Shown here: positions 3,052-27,928 of the stretch, piece by piece
How positions within the stretch are numbered: the stretch's first letter is position 1
How the letters are laid out: each line of letters opens with the position of its first letter
IMG/VR virus record: IMGVR_UViG_3300022539_000471
Location: 1-31,579 of that record
Length of the DNA stretch: 31,579 nucleotides
DNA from: a virus
Reading direction: 5' to 3' (one strand)
Position numbers and translations under genes: made by a program
The notes under the pieces: generated by a model
Told to the model about the DNA's origin: nothing
The model's database searches: none
The model's input: the letters and a program-made list of their open reading frames with translations, nothing else

Positions 3052-3073
3052 ACGCTATCTTAGAGGATTACTA

Positions 3074-3090
3074 TATTCAAAAATTGAATA
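3074..3090 (+). promoter_or_regulatory. Palindromic element, copy 1 (TTCAAAAATTGAA)
   Basis: TATTCAA, AAA, TTGAATA is an inverted repeat with 7-base arms, 23 bases before the ATG at 3113 and directly upstream of its AAGGAGG. One of five copies in the window. Operator, promoter or RNA-level control are all possible. Confidence 0.72.
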
Positions 3091-3112
3091 AGCTAAGGAG
3101 GTGAGGAGAACC

Positions 3113-4654: not shown

Positions 4655-4771
4655 ATGCCCATATGGCTAATGAACATTGCAGCTAAAGCGGTTCAGGGTG
4701 TGCTGGTATTATGGGTAGGGATTTATGGGTTGGTATGTTTGTATTGTGCATGGAGGAATAGAAAGCATTAG
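4655..4771 (+). CDS. Tiny single-span membrane protein, 38 aa
   Basis: From ATG 4655 the frame encodes 38 residues: a hydrophobic span (about residues 12-31, VQGVLVLWVGIYGLVCLYCA) ending in a basic tail WRNRKH. This fits a small inner-membrane protein with the tail in the cytoplasm. No strong ribosome site is seen, so translation may be coupled to the preceding gene, whose stop is 2 bases away. Its TAG stop falls in the conserved CATTAGCA that precedes the palindromic element. Confidence 0.55.
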   Translation: MPIWLMNIAAKAVQGVLVLWVGIYGLVCLYCAWRNRKH

Positions 4772-4774
4772 CAT

Positions 4775-4789
4775 ATTCAAAAATTGAAT
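4775..4789 (+). promoter_or_regulatory. Palindromic element, copy 2
   Basis: ATTCAAAAATTGAAT lies 18 bases before the GTG at 4807 and just upstream of its GAGGAGG. It is preceded by CATTAGCA (4766-4773), which also precedes copies 3 and 4, and followed by TTAGT. Confidence 0.72.
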
Positions 4790-4806
4790 TTAGTGAGGAG
4801 GAGAAA

Positions 4807-7499: not shown

Positions 7500-7871
7500 A
7501 TGAGTAAGATTAATGTAAACCTGGACGAGGTTGACGAGTTCGAGCCTATACCAACCGCACAGTACCTATGTAGAATTACAAAAGCAGAGCAGGTTAAGGC
7601 AAGTACGGGAGCTGATATGATTTCTTGCGAGGCTGAGGTAGCCGAGGGTGAGCACGAAGGGAGGGTGCTCTTTTTTAATACCATGCTCAAGACGAAAAAA
7701 GGGAAGGTTAATTACTACCTCAGAAGGCTCATAGAGGCTCTCGGTGTGGAATGGACAGCTAAGGGATTCAACACGGAAGATATGATGGGAGCAGAGTTCA
7801 TAGCGAATGTAGAACCACCTGATCCTGGACAGAGATTTAATAAGGTGACTGATTATCTGCCACCTAGTTAG
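7500..7871 (+). CDS. DUF669-type phage protein, probable ssDNA-binding partner, 123 aa
   Basis: Begins SKINVNLDEVDEFEPIPTAQ and contains VAEGEHEGRVLFFNTML and VNYYLRRLIEALGV, the pattern of the DUF669 family. These proteins lie beside Sak4-like ATPases in many phages and are thought to act like single-strand binding proteins; that role is by family and context, not shown in the sequence. AAAGGAGGTGAG precedes the ATG. Last protein gene before the first structured RNA. Confidence 0.78.
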   Translation: MSKINVNLDEVDEFEPIPTAQYLCRITKAEQVKASTGADMISCEAEVAEGEHEGRVLFFNTMLKTKKGKVNYYLRRLIEALGVEWTAKGFNTEDMMGAEFIANVEPPDPGQRFNKVTDYLPPS

Positions 7872-7877
7872 TAATTT

Positions 7878-8016
7878 ATCCGCTCTGGAGTACCTTTGAG
7901 TACTCGGTAATGGTCGTTAAGACCGAGGTCTCTGTCGCCAGGATAGGCATAAGCCGAGTTATTCTGGGAGGGTTGAGACGTGGTGCAGGGGATGGGGATA
8001 ACCTGCCAGAGCGGAT
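7878..8016 (+). ncRNA. Structured RNA candidate, member 1
   Basis: A closing stem of 10-11 bp (ATCCGCTCTGG 7878-7888 with CCAGAGCGGAT 8006-8016) encloses several hairpins: GAGTAC/GTACTC (7888-7893, 7900-7905), GGTC/GACC (7912-7915, 7921-7924), GTCTC/GAGAC (7928-7932, 7975-7979) enclosing CCAGGATA/TATTCTGG (7938-7945, 7960-7967) and GGC/GCC, then GCAGG/CCTGC (7985-7989, 8002-8006). It fills the gap between two genes. The closing stem, the CGTTAAGA loop and the ATGGGGA loop recur in the RNA at 10811-10956, with two compensatory pair changes. I match it to no known RNA class. Confidence 0.72.
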
Positions 8017-8073
8017 CGCAATTATAATATTATAGGAAAAACATCCTGAAACTATAAAGCTTGGTGAAGAAAA

Positions 8074-10399: not shown

Positions 10400-10416
10400 G
10401 AGAGGAGGTGAGAAGA

Positions 10417-10806
10417 ATGAATCTATTTAGAGAAGGAGCAGCTTCGGGCTGTTATGCTGTGGCGTTTGTCTTGGATACAAACTTCGTCGATTTCAAGTGG
10501 GATATAGAGAAGTATCAGGTAGCGCTTAGGATGATTGATAAGGCCCGAGGGGATAAAAAGGTCACTGATGAAGAGATTGGAGACATCCTCATTGCATTAG
10601 GTGATGAACAACCTGTGTATCTAAAGCACGCCCTGTATGTTCTTGGAGCTTTGTTTAAGTCAAAGTCTGTGGACTTCGAATGGGAATCTGAGGAGTTTAG
10701 TGACGTATTTGATTGTTTGGATGACATGCGTGCTGACAATTACTTCACTGATGAGGAGCTAGCGGATTTCCTGAGAGTGCTTGGAGATACTTTGTCTGAA
10801 GAATAA
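10417..10806 (+). CDS. Hypothetical acidic protein with internal duplication, 129 aa
   Basis: ATG 10417 follows AGAGGAGG by 8 bases; GTG 10408 overlaps this site and is less likely. Two halves are homologous: VDFKWDIEKY, RGDKKVTDEEIGDILIALGD and then VDFEWESEEF, RADNYFTDEELADFLRVLGD. Each half has an Asp-rich loop before TDEE, which recalls EF-hand-like or helical pair repeats, but the 12-residue EF-hand spacing is incomplete. Last gene before the RNA cluster. Confidence 0.72.
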   Translation: MNLFREGAASGCYAVAFVLDTNFVDFKWDIEKYQVALRMIDKARGDKKVTDEEIGDILIALGDEQPVYLKHALYVLGALFKSKSVDFEWESEEFSDVFDCLDDMRADNYFTDEELADFLRVLGDTLSEE

Positions 10807-10810
10807 TTAT

Positions 10811-10956
10811 TAACTGCTCTGTGGCGTTCAAGCGTCAGGTTGGTGGTAGAAAAGCCTTTCCTGATACGGGTTGGTAGGGAACGACCAGTTCGTTAAGAGG
10901 CAATTGTGGGGTGGTTGTGGTAGCAGGTTAAATGGGGAACCCTGCCAGAGCAGTTA
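10811..10956 (+). ncRNA. Structured RNA candidate, member 2
   Basis: TAACTGCTCTG (10811-10821) and CAGAGCAGTTA (10946-10956) form a perfect 11-bp closing stem. Relative to the RNA at 7878-8016, two pairs differ on both strands: T-A becomes A-T and C-G becomes T-A. After the closing strand comes a small hairpin (TGGCG/CGTCA, 10822-10826 and 10832-10836, six-base loop). Shared primary elements are CGTTAAGA (10891-10898), the GCAGG/CCTGC hairpin (10923-10927, 10941-10945) with ATGGGGA in its loop, and CCAGAGC. The middle differs in sequence. Followed by GCAAT in both members. Confidence 0.72.
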
Positions 10957-10964
10957 GCAATACT

Positions 10965-11102
10965 GAGGAGCTCACCTTTATGGGAATATCGAGGGAGGCT
11001 ATGCGGAGCCTAGTGGTTGCCTGTTGGGAATCGGATGCTGAGCCTAGCCGCCAGCATCCTTGTGCGCTCTCGACGCTCTGTCCAACATTGGTGAGCTCCC
11101 TC
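10965..11102 (+). ncRNA. Structured RNA candidate abutting tRNA-Thr
   Basis: GGAGCTCACC (10967-10976) pairs perfectly with GGTGAGCTCC (11090-11099); GAG/CTC can extend it. Inside are GGCT/AGCC (10997-11000, 11007-11010), GGATGCTG/CAGCATCC (11033-11040, 11052-11059), TCGAG/CTCGA and GTTGG/CCAAC pairings. It ends one base before the tRNA, so it is probably co-transcribed and processed from the same transcript. An ORF track through it has no ribosome site. It shares no clear sequence with the other two RNAs. Confidence 0.6.
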
Positions 11103-11103
11103 T

Positions 11104-11176
11104 GCCAACGTAGCTCAACTGGTAGAGCAGCTGATTTGTAATCAGCAGGTTGGGGGTTTGACTCCTCTCGTTGGCT
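11104..11176 (+). tRNA. tRNA-Thr (anticodon TGT)
   Basis: Acceptor GCCAACG / CGTTGGC pairs fully. The D arm is GCTC...GAGC, the anticodon arm GCTGA-TTTGTAA-TCAGC places TGT in the loop, and the T arm GGGGG-TTTGACT-CCTCT contains G-U pairs. No CCA is encoded. The T loop TTTGACT departs from TTCGANT by one base. Confidence 0.92.
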
Positions 11177-11192
11177 CTAAGGAGGAAGGAAG

Positions 11193-11953: not shown

Positions 11954-12248
11954 GTTCAGCTGTAAGCTAGAAAGAGGAAATCTCTCCCTCGAGATCTCTG
12001 CAGAACACAACATTATTGTATCACGCCAACACTTTGTTGATAATCGGCAGGCTGTAAAGGCAGCACAGATATCAGCTCAGCAGATGATGCAGAAGGGATG
12101 GAAGTTGGTAATGCTTAACGAGCAGAAGGTTAAGCAAAGTAAATTAGTCATTCCCACCTCATTAGCAGTTTCAAAAATTGAAAATAGTCCCCCTTATATA
12201 AAGGCGAGATTGCCTTTAGGGGATGGAACAGTGGGAAGGGAGATATGA
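11928..12248 (+). CDS. Hypothetical protein, 106 aa, with palindromic element inside its 3' end
   Basis: Three in-frame ATGs exist (11916, 11922, 11928); GGAG at 11918-11921 favours 11928. The middle is helical (RQAVKAAQISAQQMMQKGWK). The palindromic element at 12169-12183 encodes VSKIE near the end, so the C-terminal coding sequence may be under double constraint. Function unknown. Confidence 0.65.
   Translation: MNNKKPIPKFSCKLERGNLSLEISAEHNIIVSRQHFVDNRQAVKAAQISAQQMMQKGWKLVMLNEQKVKQSKLVIPTSLAVSKIENSPPYIKARLPLGDGTVGREI
12169..12183 (+). promoter_or_regulatory. Palindromic element, copy 3
   Basis: TTTCAAAAATTGAAA is preceded by CATTAGCA (12160-12167) and followed by ATAGT, as in copies 2 and 4. 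It lies inside a coding region, about 62 bases before the start at 12245, so it is farther from a start than the others. Confidence 0.65.
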
Positions 12249-19254: not shown

Positions 19255-19273
19255 AGTTGAGATCATTAGCAGT

Positions 19274-19286
19274 TTCAATTATTGAA
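19274..19286 (+). promoter_or_regulatory. Palindromic element, copy 4
   Basis: TTCAATTATTGAA is preceded by CATTAGCAG (19264-19272) and followed by TATAGTAAGG, 26 bases before ATG 19312. TATAGT (19287-19292) with TTAGCA (19266-19271) could act as -10 and -35 boxes 15 bases apart, with the palindrome filling the spacer. Confidence 0.7.
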
Positions 19287-19311
19287 TATAGTAAGGATAA
19301 GGAGGAAGGGG

Positions 19312-23653: not shown

Positions 23654-26472
23654 TACTGACCCCTTGGAGTCATTTTAATCTTACCTCGACGATAGGCTAG
23701 TTTAAATGCCCGTTCAAACTCCTTCGTCATTATCCCATCAACAGGCCCATCCCATACACCACGGTCTTTCATCTCCTGTTGAGCTGCCTGGATTGAGAGA
23801 TGGTACTTAGTATCCTTATCCATGAAGAACTTAAATGTATCTAGCCAATACGTTGAATCATAAGCACGTTTCTTTCCAGGAGGCGGTTCAAGAGAGGGAG
23901 GTTCAAGAGAGGGAGGTTCAAATGGAACAGCTTTAGAATATGGTACGCTTCGTATGAATTTCTCATGCAACGCAGGCGTTATCTCTGGACGCTCTCCTGC
24001 AAAGGATAAGGTAGTATCACTATATGCTTTCCATAAGCCCAGAGGAGTGCTAAAACGAGCTGCCTCTTCAGGACTATACCCCATCTCTGTCTGTAGCAAA
24101 TCACCATATAATGCAAATATCTCACGACGACCCTGAGCTCTAATCGCCTGATCAAACGATGCCATGAAAATGCCCTGAGGATCAATCGTTCTAACCGCTT
24201 GCTTGAGTAACTCAAGACGTCGGTCTGCCTCCTCATCACCAGCTGCACCTCCAGGGGTAGTACTGAGCCAATCGAGAGTACCATCTCTAGGGTTAATCAA
24301 TCCTACTTTATACCCTGTCTTACTATCACCAATCTTTATAGGGGTGGGAGGGTAAAATGCTGCAGGATACTTAAATGCTACTTCTATGGAATCATCATCT
24401 TTTCGCTGAATAATCACATCACCAACCTTCATGAATTTACCAGCTTCAATCTCAGCCCTTACTTTCATGGATTCAATTCGCTGATCCTCCGCCTTAAGTG
24501 ATGTAGAGATTAGCATCTTCTCCCTAGTTGTAAGGTTATCCATTTGTGCAATTCTCCAAGTTATAGCAGTCCTATCTCTTTGCACATCATAACCTTCTCT
24601 CGTAAGGATTGCATTTATTTCAATTCGTCTATCTTCTCTCATCCCCATAGATTCTGCAAGTTCTTTAGAAACATACATCTGTTCCCATCCACGCTTTTCT
24701 GCCCTCTCCTTAACTGCTAACTCACCCATGCCGAGAACTTCGTCGAGAGCGAGTTTATCCATGTTATACTCTTGCATAAAGTCTTGCCCTCTCATTGATA
24801 TGGTCGCATTAAGTGCCGCAACGTTAGCAGTAGTCAAATTCAACTTATCTGCAATCTCTCCCCTTATAGCATACCCTTCACGAGTAACCTCGAATCCTTT
24901 ATCTGCTATGTATTTATTCAATCCCATTCGTTGCTCTTCTCGCAATCCTGTAGCTTCAGATAAGTCTTTATCGATGTACATCTTTTCCCATGCTCGTTTC
25001 TCTGCTAACTCTTGGATATCTCTTACATCTTCCTCTGTAACCACTCTGCGTTCAGCTATGCGAGCTAGTTGCTCAGATATGGCTAACTTACCTTTGCCAA
25101 GTGTTTCTTCCATCTCTATCCGTGTCATACCAAGCTCACGCTCAATATCCTGCCCTCGCTCTGTAAGTCCTGCGTTTAATGCTGCACGCTGGCCTGCTGC
25201 AAGGTCGTGCTTATCTGCAATCCTCTCACTAATCATATAGCCTTCACGAGTAACCTGAAACCCTTCACGCCTAATGTCAGCATTAATCTCAGCTACTTGT
25301 ATGGGAGTAAGGTTTGCTCGCTTTCTAAGTTCTTCATCAATATACATAGCCTCCCATGCACGTTCTTCTGCTTGCCTTCTAATAGCCAATGCTTCCTCTT
25401 CCACACCTACCCTGCGCTCAGCCACACGGACTAATTGTGCAGAAATCTTGAGCTTACCTTTACCGAGCATATCTTCCATATCTATACGTGACATACCAAG
25501 CTTATACTCGAGGTCTTGCCCTCGTTTTGTAAATCCTGCATTCAGTGCTGCTCGCTGATCAAGTGATAAATTATTCTTATCTGCAATCCTTTCAGTAACC
25601 GCAAAGCCAGTATAATCTACCTGAAATCCCTCACGTCTGACATCAGCATTTATCCCCGCTACCTGTATAGGGGTGAGATTTGCTTGTTTCCCAAGTTCTT
25701 CATCAACATACATTGTCTCCCACAATCTATCCTCTGTTCTTACTTTGAGTTGGTAGTCTTGCTCATTCTCTACAGCTTCCCTGCGCATCATCTCTTCACC
25801 TGCAGGGTTTGTATATTCCATTATTGTACTACCAGTTTGTTTATCAAGTGCTACAACATTCCCATACTTATCAGCAAAGAATTGAGCTTCAGGAGGGAGT
25901 TGGTTAATAGGTATTTTATTCATCACATCACCCGAAAGACGCTCAGTGATAATAAGTTCTGTATCTGTAGCAGTTAGCACTGGAGGTGCATATTTAGGCT
26001 CTCCAGTTATAGGATCAACCAAAGCACCTGCTATCTCTATACCAGGTACGACCATAGGAACTCCCTCTGGAGAGAGTAACATTTCAGTTTGTTTCAATAC
26101 TATTGGCTTAGGCTCTGGAGGAGGAGCCTGCCATGCTTCAACTACCTCTCCTGTAGGATAGGTAGCTAAGAGCACACCTTCCACAGTTGCATACGTAGGC
26201 CACGTAGCTTGCTCTTCTGCCCAGTCCTGCTTACGCTCAGCTAAACTCACCTGACGTTCCATTGCTACCTGCTGCCTTTCCTGTAAGGCTAATTGTGCTC
26301 TTGCAATATCTTCAGCAAGTGTATCAGTAACACCCCCCACACCTCTTACATCTAATGCTTCTTCCTCCTCCCTCTCGAGCGCTCTCTCTGATGCTCGAAC
26401 CTGAAGTTTCATTAAGCTCTTCCTGAGTCTTTCCATCTCAGGATCAACATGTCCAAACCAAGTCATTGGCAT
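23653..26472 (-). CDS. Repeat-rich internal virion protein with PG-binding-like end, 939 aa
   Basis: Four homologous units begin near residues 247, 369, 492 and 592, each with W-x-x-MY[IV], an ERIADK- or EIADK-type middle and GQD, with spacing of 122, 123 and 100 residues; the fourth is the most diverged. They are charged and helical and could form a rod or tube. A Pro-rich linker (PPSLEPPSLEPPPG) leads to a C-terminal IQAAQQEMKDRGVWDGPVDG segment like a PG_binding_1 domain. GGGTGGTG precedes the ATG, and the palindromic element lies 23 bases upstream. Confidence 0.72.
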   Translation of the reverse strand: MPMTWFGHVDPEMERLRKSLMKLQVRASERALEREEEEALDVRGVGGVTDTLAEDIARAQLALQERQQVAMERQVSLAERKQDWAEEQATWPTYATVEGVLLATYPTGEVVEAWQAPPPEPKPIVLKQTEMLLSPEGVPMVVPGIEIAGALVDPITGEPKYAPPVLTATDTELIITERLSGDVMNKIPINQLPPEAQFFADKYGNVVALDKQTGSTIMEYTNPAGEEMMRREAVENEQDYQLKVRTEDRLWETMYVDEELGKQANLTPIQVAGINADVRREGFQVDYTGFAVTERIADKNNLSLDQRAALNAGFTKRGQDLEYKLGMSRIDMEDMLGKGKLKISAQLVRVAERRVGVEEEALAIRRQAEERAWEAMYIDEELRKRANLTPIQVAEINADIRREGFQVTREGYMISERIADKHDLAAGQRAALNAGLTERGQDIERELGMTRIEMEETLGKGKLAISEQLARIAERRVVTEEDVRDIQELAEKRAWEKMYIDKDLSEATGLREEQRMGLNKYIADKGFEVTREGYAIRGEIADKLNLTTANVAALNATISMRGQDFMQEYNMDKLALDEVLGMGELAVKERAEKRGWEQMYVSKELAESMGMREDRRIEINAILTREGYDVQRDRTAITWRIAQMDNLTTREKMLISTSLKAEDQRIESMKVRAEIEAGKFMKVGDVIIQRKDDDSIEVAFKYPAAFYPPTPIKIGDSKTGYKVGLINPRDGTLDWLSTTPGGAAGDEEADRRLELLKQAVRTIDPQGIFMASFDQAIRAQGRREIFALYGDLLQTEMGYSPEEAARFSTPLGLWKAYSDTTLSFAGERPEITPALHEKFIRSVPYSKAVPFEPPSLEPPSLEPPPGKKRAYDSTYWLDTFKFFMDKDTKYHLSIQAAQQEMKDRGVWDGPVDGIMTKEFERAFKLAYRRGKIKMTPRGQ

Positions 26473-26494
26473 CTAAATCACCACCCTTAGTATT

Positions 26495-26507
26495 TTCAAT
26501 TTTTGAA
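26495..26507 (-). promoter_or_regulatory. Palindromic element, copy 5, minus strand
   Basis: Read leftward, TTCAAAAATTGAA is followed by AATACTAAGGG, 23 bases before the ATG at 26472. It is the only copy in the virion operon and has the same orientation to its gene as the others. Confidence 0.68.
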
Positions 26508-26518
26508 CATAGTCATGA

Positions 26519-27928
26519 TTAATAAGTATACATCCCAGCCATTGGAGTTCCTAGTAATTGTGCTAATAACTGTTGCCTTCGTATTTGCTGCTCCGCACCT
26601 AATCGCTGAGTTTGCATCCCCGCTCCCATACCCAACTGTTGAGCCTGTAATGCTGCTTGTGTACCTAATCGTTGTGTTTGCAATCCTGCCCCTGCACCCA
26701 ATTGCTGAGCTTGTAACGCCGCTTGTAATGCCTGCTGTTGCTGCATCATCGCTGCTTGTGCACCTAGTTGCTGAGTCTGCATCCCTGCTCCCATGCCTAA
26801 TTGTTGTGCTAACATTGCTGCTTGCGCACCTAATTGCTGCCCTTGCATACCTGCTGCTGCTCCAAGTTGTTGGGTTTGCATTCGTGCTCCCATACCTAAT
26901 TGTCGAGCTTGCATCTGTGCCCCTACACCTAATTGTCGCCCCTGCATCCGTGCTCCCATACCTAGTTGCTGTGCCTGTAACGCTGCTGTTGTACCCAATC
27001 GCTGTGCTTGCATCCCTGGTTGCATCTCCATTCCAAACCGCTGCACGCCAAGTCCTGCTGCTCCAAGTGCTTCCTGAGTACCCAAGCCTGCAGCCTGCAT
27101 AGCTTGCGCTCTTCGTTGCATTCTATACTGCTCTCCCATTCCAGCAAGACTCTCAGCTAAACCTGCTCCAGCTCTAGCCTCTTCTCCAGCACGCATTGTA
27201 CTCCAGGTAGTCCCTGCTCCTGCAGCAGCGCCTCTGATTCCAGGAAGTATTTGTTCTCTAAATTGACGCATTGCAGGAGCACTCATAGCCTGAATTGCTG
27301 CAGCCTCCTCAGTGGGAGACACAGCCATCATCCTACCCAATGCGCCTGCCCGTTCACCTGCGCCAGCAAGTCCTACTGGAGCATATGTGGGCATCTGCAT
27401 ACCAGGAACTCCTGCAGCAGTAGGTGCCTGTATAGTGGGCATCTGTATAGCGGTAGGCATTTGTATAGGAGTAGGCATCTGCACACCAGGTATCTGTGCA
27501 GGAGTGGGCATCTGTATACCAGGGATCTGTGCAATAGGAGGAGCACCTACGCCAGGAATCCGAGCTTGCGCAGGAACCTGTGCAGCAGTAGGCATCCGCA
27601 TGGTAGGGATTTGCGGTTGCTGTCCCATTAAGGTCGTAAGCATTTGCTGTTGCTGTGGAGTTAATGTACCTATCGTACCAAAGCGAGGTTTCTCACTAGG
27701 TTCCCTTCTAGTACCAGCATATCCCTTTGAGACCGCTGCGGTACGCCTTTCAGTAGGACGCTCTGCTGCTCTTCCTGGTATAGGCCAATGAGCCCTACTA
27801 GGATCAACTACTGTATATCCAGCTCTAGGTCTAGGTACAACACCTCCTCCTCTACCACGAGATGCAATGCCTTGCCATCCAGCTCCAAAGCCTCCAGCTA
27901 CTCCTCCAGTCCTTCTAGTAATTGCCAT
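26519..27928 (-). CDS. Low-complexity virion protein with 11-residue repeats, 469 aa
   Basis: Residues 1-35 are Gly/Arg-rich, 105-180 hold Pro repeats (QIPGVQMPTP kind), and 195-290 are Ala/Met-rich with APAMRQFREQILPGIRGAAA. Residues about 318-460 contain more than ten copies of an 11-residue unit of the form QQLGMGARMQT, with Gln, Leu, Gly and Ala at fixed places. Eleven residues fit three helical turns, so a long amphipathic helix or right-handed coiled coil is expected. Probably an internal or membrane-interacting virion protein. GGGGGTGATT precedes the ATG. Confidence 0.65.
   Translation of the reverse strand: MAITRRTGGVAGGFGAGWQGIASRGRGGGVVPRPRAGYTVVDPSRAHWPIPGRAAERPTERRTAAVSKGYAGTRREPSEKPRFGTIGTLTPQQQQMLTTLMGQQPQIPTMRMPTAAQVPAQARIPGVGAPPIAQIPGIQMPTPAQIPGVQMPTPIQMPTAIQMPTIQAPTAAGVPGMQMPTYAPVGLAGAGERAGALGRMMAVSPTEEAAAIQAMSAPAMRQFREQILPGIRGAAAGAGTTWSTMRAGEEARAGAGLAESLAGMGEQYRMQRRAQAMQAAGLGTQEALGAAGLGVQRFGMEMQPGMQAQRLGTTAALQAQQLGMGARMQGRQLGVGAQMQARQLGMGARMQTQQLGAAAGMQGQQLGAQAAMLAQQLGMGAGMQTQQLGAQAAMMQQQQALQAALQAQQLGAGAGLQTQRLGTQAALQAQQLGMGAGMQTQRLGAEQQIRRQQLLAQLLGTPMAGMYTY

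Follow-up and report, generated by a model that had tools for sequence, protein, structure and literature searches.

Two stretches of phage DNA, M2 and M1, appear to encode RNAs that belong to a tRNA-like phage family not described before, and the reading that we favour, with a probability of about one half, is that such RNAs are excised from operon transcripts and act in trans as mimics of tRNA. Comparison of sequences establishes the fold, the family, the position of its members between cistrons and the gain or loss of a whole unit, and from this we infer the function. No description of such a tRNA-like family was among the matches listed in searches of the open-access literature.

The RNA block and its setting

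The window analysed here is the whole of an IMG/VR virus record, 31,579 bases long and tailed-phage-like, from a virus of bacteria. Its plus strand carries genes for an exonuclease, a Sak4-like annealing protein, a DUF669 SSB-like protein, a ParB-methyltransferase and a DNA polymerase. The RNA block at 10811-11176 is real; M2 is followed by M3 and then by tRNA-Thr, and the spacings given in an earlier note on this DNA, 8 nt between the two RNAs and 1 nt from the second to the tRNA, are as measured. The features are collected in Table 1.

Table 1. Positions of the RNAs, their predicted arms and the flanking genes in the window.
Feature	Position	Strand	Evidence
DUF669/SSB-like gene upstream of M1	7500-7871	+	Pfam DUF669, 1.6e-7
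M1, predicted type II RNA of greater divergence, immediately 3' of the DUF669 gene	7877-8017	+	R3 23.0 bits, E 5.5e-4, filters off
M1 D-like arm, GAGTAC-CTTTGA-GTACTC	7888-7905	+	fold; position agrees with R3 alignment
M1 T-like arm, GCAGG-GGATGGGGATAA-CCTGC	7985-8006	+	R3 alignment
132-aa gene of no assigned family, stops 4 nt before M2	10408-10806	+	no Pfam or PHROG match
M2, predicted type II tRNA-like RNA, whole element	10811-10956	+	R3 55.4 bits, E 1.1e-11, full length 1-129
M2 acceptor-like closing stem, 5' strand, partner of 10946-10956	10811-10821	+	12 bp including 10810/10957
M2 D-like arm, TGGCG-TTCAAG-CGTCA	10822-10837	+	R3 alignment
M2 T-like arm, GCAGG-TTAAATGGGGAAC-CCTGC, abuts closing stem	10923-10945	+	R3 alignment
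M2 closing stem, 3' strand	10946-10956	+	stem search, R3 alignment
M3, candidate structured RNA outside the family	10965-11102	+	fold z -3.44, 0/200 shuffles
tRNA-Thr (UGU), ordinary	11104-11177	+	ARAGORN; Rfam tRNA 66.6 bits

The earlier note had read the block as two structured RNAs and a tRNA. M2 is borne out by its homologues and tRNA-Thr by ARAGORN and Rfam, while M3 has a good fold and no independent homologue was found for it, there being no match to any of the three covariance models (R1, R2 and R3) described below. Folding energies, which were expected to be better than those of shuffled sequence, clearly are so for M3 but not for M2 (z -1.52; 13/200 shuffles equally good) or for the block as a whole (z -1.62; 6/100). 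M2 is thus established by its homologues and not by energy. The earlier note spoke of both structured RNAs as members, but they do not form one family; only M2 belongs, with M1, which lies 2.9 kb upstream, as its sibling. That a single transcript is processed into M2, M3 and tRNA-Thr is plausible, since the genes are co-directional and neither a promoter nor a terminator was called within the block, where no such reading exceeded those of shuffled sequence.

A near-identical contig (L003) differs from the window at 21 positions in 13,304 bases, none of them inside M1, M2, M3 or the tRNA, and for that reason adds no evidence of covariation. When the block was compared by blast with named phages, tRNA-Thr gave the sole match among the matches listed (20 of 405 records).

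Common architecture and type I members

The members share a design in which a closing stem resembling a tRNA acceptor, of 9-12 bp as against 7 bp, is followed on the inner side of its 5' strand by a D-like arm; a variable domain of 15-140 nt then takes the position of the anticodon arm, and a T-like arm abuts the 3' acceptor strand. Relatives were sought in loci obtained from profile searches with Sak4 and the polymerase (11 and 30 loci), and in L016 and L018 a stem search of these showed the closing stem, TGTGGCGTTC and the T-arm together. When viral contigs were scanned for the D-arm motif, 19 stretches were returned, 14 of which are members with the full design (11 distinct); the three returned from genome contigs were one complete member, on a MAG contig, one that is cut off and one non-member. 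The type I alignment, A5, contains 12 distinct sequences. Motif scans select for the motif, so that identity of the D-arm in A5, and in the type II alignment A7, is present by construction and was not counted as conservation.

In type I the loops are those of a tRNA. The D-arm is GCGUU-CUGGCGAA-AACGC, with GG carried in the loop, and the T-arm, GCAGG-UUCRAAU-CCUGC or a variant of it, is a normal tRNA T-arm. Across the 21 pairs of the A5 structure 90.4% of cells are paired, compared with 72.4% in shuffled alignments, and the covariation is 0.489 compared with 0.176, with 0/500 shuffles reaching these levels. Two-sided changes number 43 against 16.1 on shuffling, and 10 of the 11 pairs of the closing stem have changed on both sides. 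A basal helix near the T-arm, usual in this type, closes the variable domain (summed score 69.0, shuffled mean 51.6, 0/500 shuffles), which points to a cloverleaf with a replaced anticodon arm. The variable domains of the family match their own loci in antisense no more than expected (sum 212, shuffled 214.5).

Two sets of candidates were discarded. The stretch L021:8008-8116, which follows a DUF669-like gene and was first taken as a member, is supported by no model, and the apparent members (3/60) in genomes of bacterial relatives of the L066 MAG are tRNAs by Rfam.

Type II members, M2 and M1

A covariance model built from type I only, R1, matched M2 and two further copies in L047. At L047:7346-7480 the D-arm is different and the T-loop is GUGGGUGAAU, and L025 is similar. 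A scan for the L047-type D-arm gave 40 stretches, 12 of them members or parts of members, and nine distinct sequences, nearly all with a GGGGAA-like T-loop, form the type II alignment A7. Here 93.1% of cells are paired (75.7% when shuffled), covariation is 0.525 (0.181 when shuffled; 0/500 shuffles) and, as in type I, 10/11 pairs of the closing stem have changed on both sides.

The model R3 was built from these nine viral sequences, none of which comes from the window. Applied to the window without filters, it ranks M2 first and M1 second. It also finds L025 and L038 and, more weakly, cross-detects the type I members L046, L050 and L018 (E 6e-6 to 3e-5); because a type II model detects type I members, the two types are related. 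The boundaries of M2 are identical in all three covariance models (R1 26.1, R2 45.2 and R3 55.4 bits), of which R2 was built with M2 included and R1 and R3 without it. The R1 score is weak alone, because ordinary tRNAs reach as much as 27.5 bits with this model. It is R3 that carries the case for M2, separating it from tRNA as R1 alone cannot; the T4 tRNA cluster has no R3 match at E 1. Within the family 10/11 positions of the M2 closing stem covary. In A8, a fitted type II alignment of 13 sequences including M2, 13 pairs have changed on both sides, and in the D-arm such changes are seen in 2/5 pairs. By blastn, M2 also has 15 consecutive nt in common with L018, of which L039, L051 and L061 are duplicates.

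M1 is more divergent. With filters off the next place in the window after M2 and M1 scores 13.6 bits with R3, and with the default filters M1 is not recovered. Its 3' end is shared with M2 (local score 32, against no more than 30 in any of 2000 shuffles) and its fold is better than that of shuffled sequence (z -4.13, 0/200). The case for M1 and M2 together rests on comparison.

The loops of type II, to which both belong, are not those of tRNA: the T-loop has the form U-GGGG-AA and the D-loop contains CUGG, to which most members have a complementary CCAG in the variable domain. The UGGGGAA of the type is present in the T-loop of M2, TTAAATGGGGAAC, and in a looser form in that of M1, GGATGGGGATAA. 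Within the variable domain CCAG is found in 11/13 type II members, where 1.6 would be expected, compared with 3/12 in type I, where 2.1 would be expected. CUGG and CCAG occur together in 9/13 type II members, and the combination is therefore frequent rather than defining: M2 (D-loop UUCAAG) and M1 have CCAG and lack CUGG in the D-loop, L110 has CUGG only and L038 has neither. A second copy in the record of L110 (L133) has UCUAGG in the D-loop and CCUAG further on, an anecdotal case of compensatory change. A UUC:GAA pairing between the D-loop and the T-loop may also form in type II, but both loops are nearly invariant. A DNA pattern for the T-loop of M1 and M2 was tried as well; it returned seven stretches, of which the near-twin contig is the sole true member and the other six lack such a structure and look coding.

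Position between genes and possible roles

Copies of the family sit between operon genes, sometimes in tandem. One tandem is at L047:13212-13494, where two type I copies lie 5 nt apart; the near-identical L058:8452-8565 has one, and the pair reads as a natural gain or loss of one whole RNA unit. The RNA comes after a DUF669 gene in the window, in L038 and in L025, with gaps of 5, 2 and 70 nt. In L087, whose Sak4 is the most similar non-twin among those compared (51.6%), a tRNA-like RNA of 140 nt comes directly after DUF669 and a type II member 28 nt further on; the first of these RNAs (L087:651-790, minus strand) combines a 7-bp acceptor and an 80-nt insertion with D- and T-arms like those of tRNA, and scores 19.9 bits as tmRNA, below the cut-off. 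Position and presence are not universal, since no R3 match at E 0.001 was found in 11/15 other records of the polymerase/Sak4 set. R2 matches 22/34 virus records, a set chosen largely as known or suspected carriers.

A second conserved element lies between the DUF669 and ParB-methyltransferase genes in L014 (7795-7893), L016 (8222-8316) and L038 (7699-7802). It has a closing stem, CGCCTCCTTT, which resembles an anti-SD sequence, and an inner hairpin, and folds with z of -5.6, -5.5 and -7.2 respectively.

Under the reading that we favour, the RNAs would be transcribed within the operon and cut out in the manner of tRNAs, by RNase P and the 3' tRNA nucleases, to give stable small RNAs. The tRNA-shaped body would then work in trans, tying up a protein of the host or of a defence system that recognises tRNA by its elbow or acceptor, and the variable domain would be free to diverge. 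M3 would be a separate structured RNA of the same transcript and tRNA-Thr an ordinary tRNA. Recognition by tRNA enzymes is not assured, because the closing stem exceeds the acceptor of tRNA and the T-loop of type II is no longer canonical.

The intercistronic position also fits a role in cis. In the main alternative, to which we give appreciable weight though clearly less than an even chance, the tRNA-like body is punctuation, a signal for processing by RNase P or other tRNA nucleases or for protection of the 3' end, and the excised RNA is idle. Among the 26 members surveyed, 13 start no more than 7 nt after the stop of an upstream gene, and 13 are followed within 10-23 nt by a start codon that has an SD-like sequence (M2 would be the 14th only if a doubtful frame in M3 is counted). 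With ORFs of at least 60 codons, 11/25 members fit between cistrons compared with 0.56 expected at random positions, a weak null in genomes as compact as those of phages. Punctuation would also suit neighbouring genes that vary and a variable domain that is not conserved. For this purpose, however, a plain tRNA would suffice, and for several copies the nearest ORF end is over 100 nt away. The conserved loops of type II, unlike those of tRNA, and the complementarity between its D-loop and CCAG suggest instead a specific partner, and we favour a trans-acting tRNA mimic over a processing signal.

Alternatively, the RNA could be a cis-regulatory leader of the downstream gene, similar to a riboswitch or T-box. 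This is improbable. The RNA does often end just 5' of a Shine-Dalgarno sequence, but M2 precedes M3 and a tRNA rather than a gene, and no alternative fold that would sequester the SD was noticed, short of a systematic search.

Comparison with known RNAs

In the window, ARAGORN and Rfam detect two ordinary tRNAs only, so that M1, M2 and M3 are not called as tRNAs with an anticodon arm; Rfam has no match at any of the three, and tmRNA is absent by both programs, with no match to RF00023. Rfam scans of 14 loci with members gave a sub-threshold match over the RNA in two, both type I: the L047 member scores 27.0 bits as tRNA (cut-off 29) with a 50-nt insertion, and that of L048 scores 26.3 as tRNA-Sec (cut-off 47). 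These two scores would be expected if the RNAs were tRNAs in decay or carrying a long insertion, retained by chance. We consider this quite unlikely, as the over-long stem covaries strongly, the RNAs are conserved across diverse phage records and there is a second coherent loop type. The family shares with tRNA and tRNA-Sec the order of the arms and, in type I, the loops; it differs from them in having no anticodon arm, an acceptor-like stem of 9-12 bp and no call by ARAGORN. In the same scans the manA RNA motif reached 50.9 bits at L091:6743-6919, just under the cut-off of 55.2.

The family resembles tmRNA (RF00023) in its acceptor, its T-arm and the large domain that replaces the anticodon arm, and differs from it in the 9-12 bp closing stem, the stemmed D-arm and the lack of a recognised tag reading frame. 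No tmRNA match lies over family members in the Rfam scans of the 14 member loci. A separate stretch, L046:1893-1991, is matched by the Rfam tmRNA model at 49.1 bits (cut-off 47); it is only 99 nt long, a tRNA-like domain that has CCA but lacks the tag part.

Y RNAs occur in phages, and the tRNA-like domain of YrlA is permuted, hence the order of its arms is different. As far as they are described in PMC8394870, Y RNAs are 90-150 nt long with a 5'-3' closing stem and a tRNA-like D/T domain, and in size, paired ends and D and T arms YrlA and the family agree. That the family could be a phage Y RNA, YrlA-like and bound by a Ro60/Rsr protein, is nevertheless very improbable. There is no match to YrlA (RF02553) in the window or in the Rfam scans of 14 member loci, and a TROVE/Ro60 gene is found in 0/34 virus records, some of which may be fragments, the one match being in a bacterial MAG. 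In the family the closing stem is an acceptor-like stem on which the T-arm abuts, which is not the arrangement of YrlA.

The block had been likened to phage tRNA arrays that carry other stable RNAs, and the comparison is apt. In T4, rnaC (139 nt), rnaD (119 nt) and tRNA-Arg lie 6 and 1 nt apart, much as in the block. RNA C and RNA D (species 1 and 2) are late RNAs of unknown function seen on Northern blots, according to PMC9697503 and PMC3014915. RNA C ends in a canonical T-arm, but it lacks the long closing stem, and the order relative to the tRNA is reversed. As a homologue RNA C is not supported by its R1 score, which is like that of a tRNA (18.9 bits, compared with 17.4 for T4 tRNA-Ser). 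When two type I members and one of type II were compared by blast with named phages, only tRNA T-arm stretches and short scattered matches were seen among the matches listed.

M3 and tRNA-Thr

M3 is closed by a 10-bp stem (10967-11099). Its similarity to M2 is at the level of shuffled sequence, and nothing common to M3 and M1 was found either. No convincing gene separates the RNAs, as had been proposed, but the further claim that no ribosome site interrupts them needs amending: GAGGAG followed by ATG at 10980 opens a frame of 53 codons (10980-11141) that enters the tRNA. We take this frame to be spurious because it has no PHROG match and the SD-like bases lie inside the closing stem of M3. A mechanically called ORF of 69 codons (10932-11141) also overlaps the block. 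The same transcript may include M3 as a further RNA, but M3 may also be a chance structure or the small frame.

Chance structure for the block as a whole has next to no probability left, being refuted for M2 by the covariance models and the covariation, in spite of its modest folding energy; it is for M3 that chance could still apply. Closing stems of at least 10 bp spanning 110-170 nt number 4 in the window, whereas 179 shuffled windows have 1.92 on average and 8 at most; since this count is within the range of the shuffles, such stems alone prove nothing.

The tRNA-Thr is incidental to the RNA family, as ARAGORN found no tRNA in any of the 19 other loci with members.

Significance

The tRNA-like RNAs may be an overlooked tool with which phages engage the tRNA machinery of the host. 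Stable RNAs of unknown function in phage tRNA regions date from RNA C and RNA D of T4; new here is a family with a defined architecture, covariation, two subtypes and a natural pair that differs by gain or loss, present in many diverse phage records and unrecognised by Rfam or ARAGORN. The role of tRNA-shaped phage RNAs that do not decode becomes directly testable, and there is a search model for further members, including those of cultivable phages. A broader and distinctly more tentative proposal, one we hold to be rather doubtful, is that, among tRNA-shaped RNAs that are non-translating, tmRNA and Y RNA are joined by these RNAs as a third major class. Such a class would have a lengthened acceptor, two elbow chemistries (one tRNA-like, the other a UGGGGAA T-loop with a kissing pair between the D-loop and the variable domain) and a fast-changing payload; it would be excised from operons and would occupy or mislead host enzymes that handle tRNA, or defences that target it.

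Other elements of the window

A near-palindrome, TTCAAAAATTGAA or similar, recurs at gene borders in the window (3064-3104, 4764-4804, 12159-12188, 19263-19292 and 26484-26513), and a similar one is found in intergenic stretches of the related L016, L021, L024 and L028; it is possible that this is an operator or a ParB-type site. Between divergent gene blocks lies an AT-rich gap (1410-2220) with perfect outward sigma-70-type promoters at 1532-1505 on the minus strand and 2022-2049 on the plus strand, which is likely to be an early control region. The left gene block is flanked by a 29-nt repeat (171-199 and 2153-2181, 83% identical) that contains AAGCTCTCAGGGG, and in the right-hand gene block there are internal repeats at 24844-25631 and 26595-27043, with spacings of 366 nt and 33 nt.
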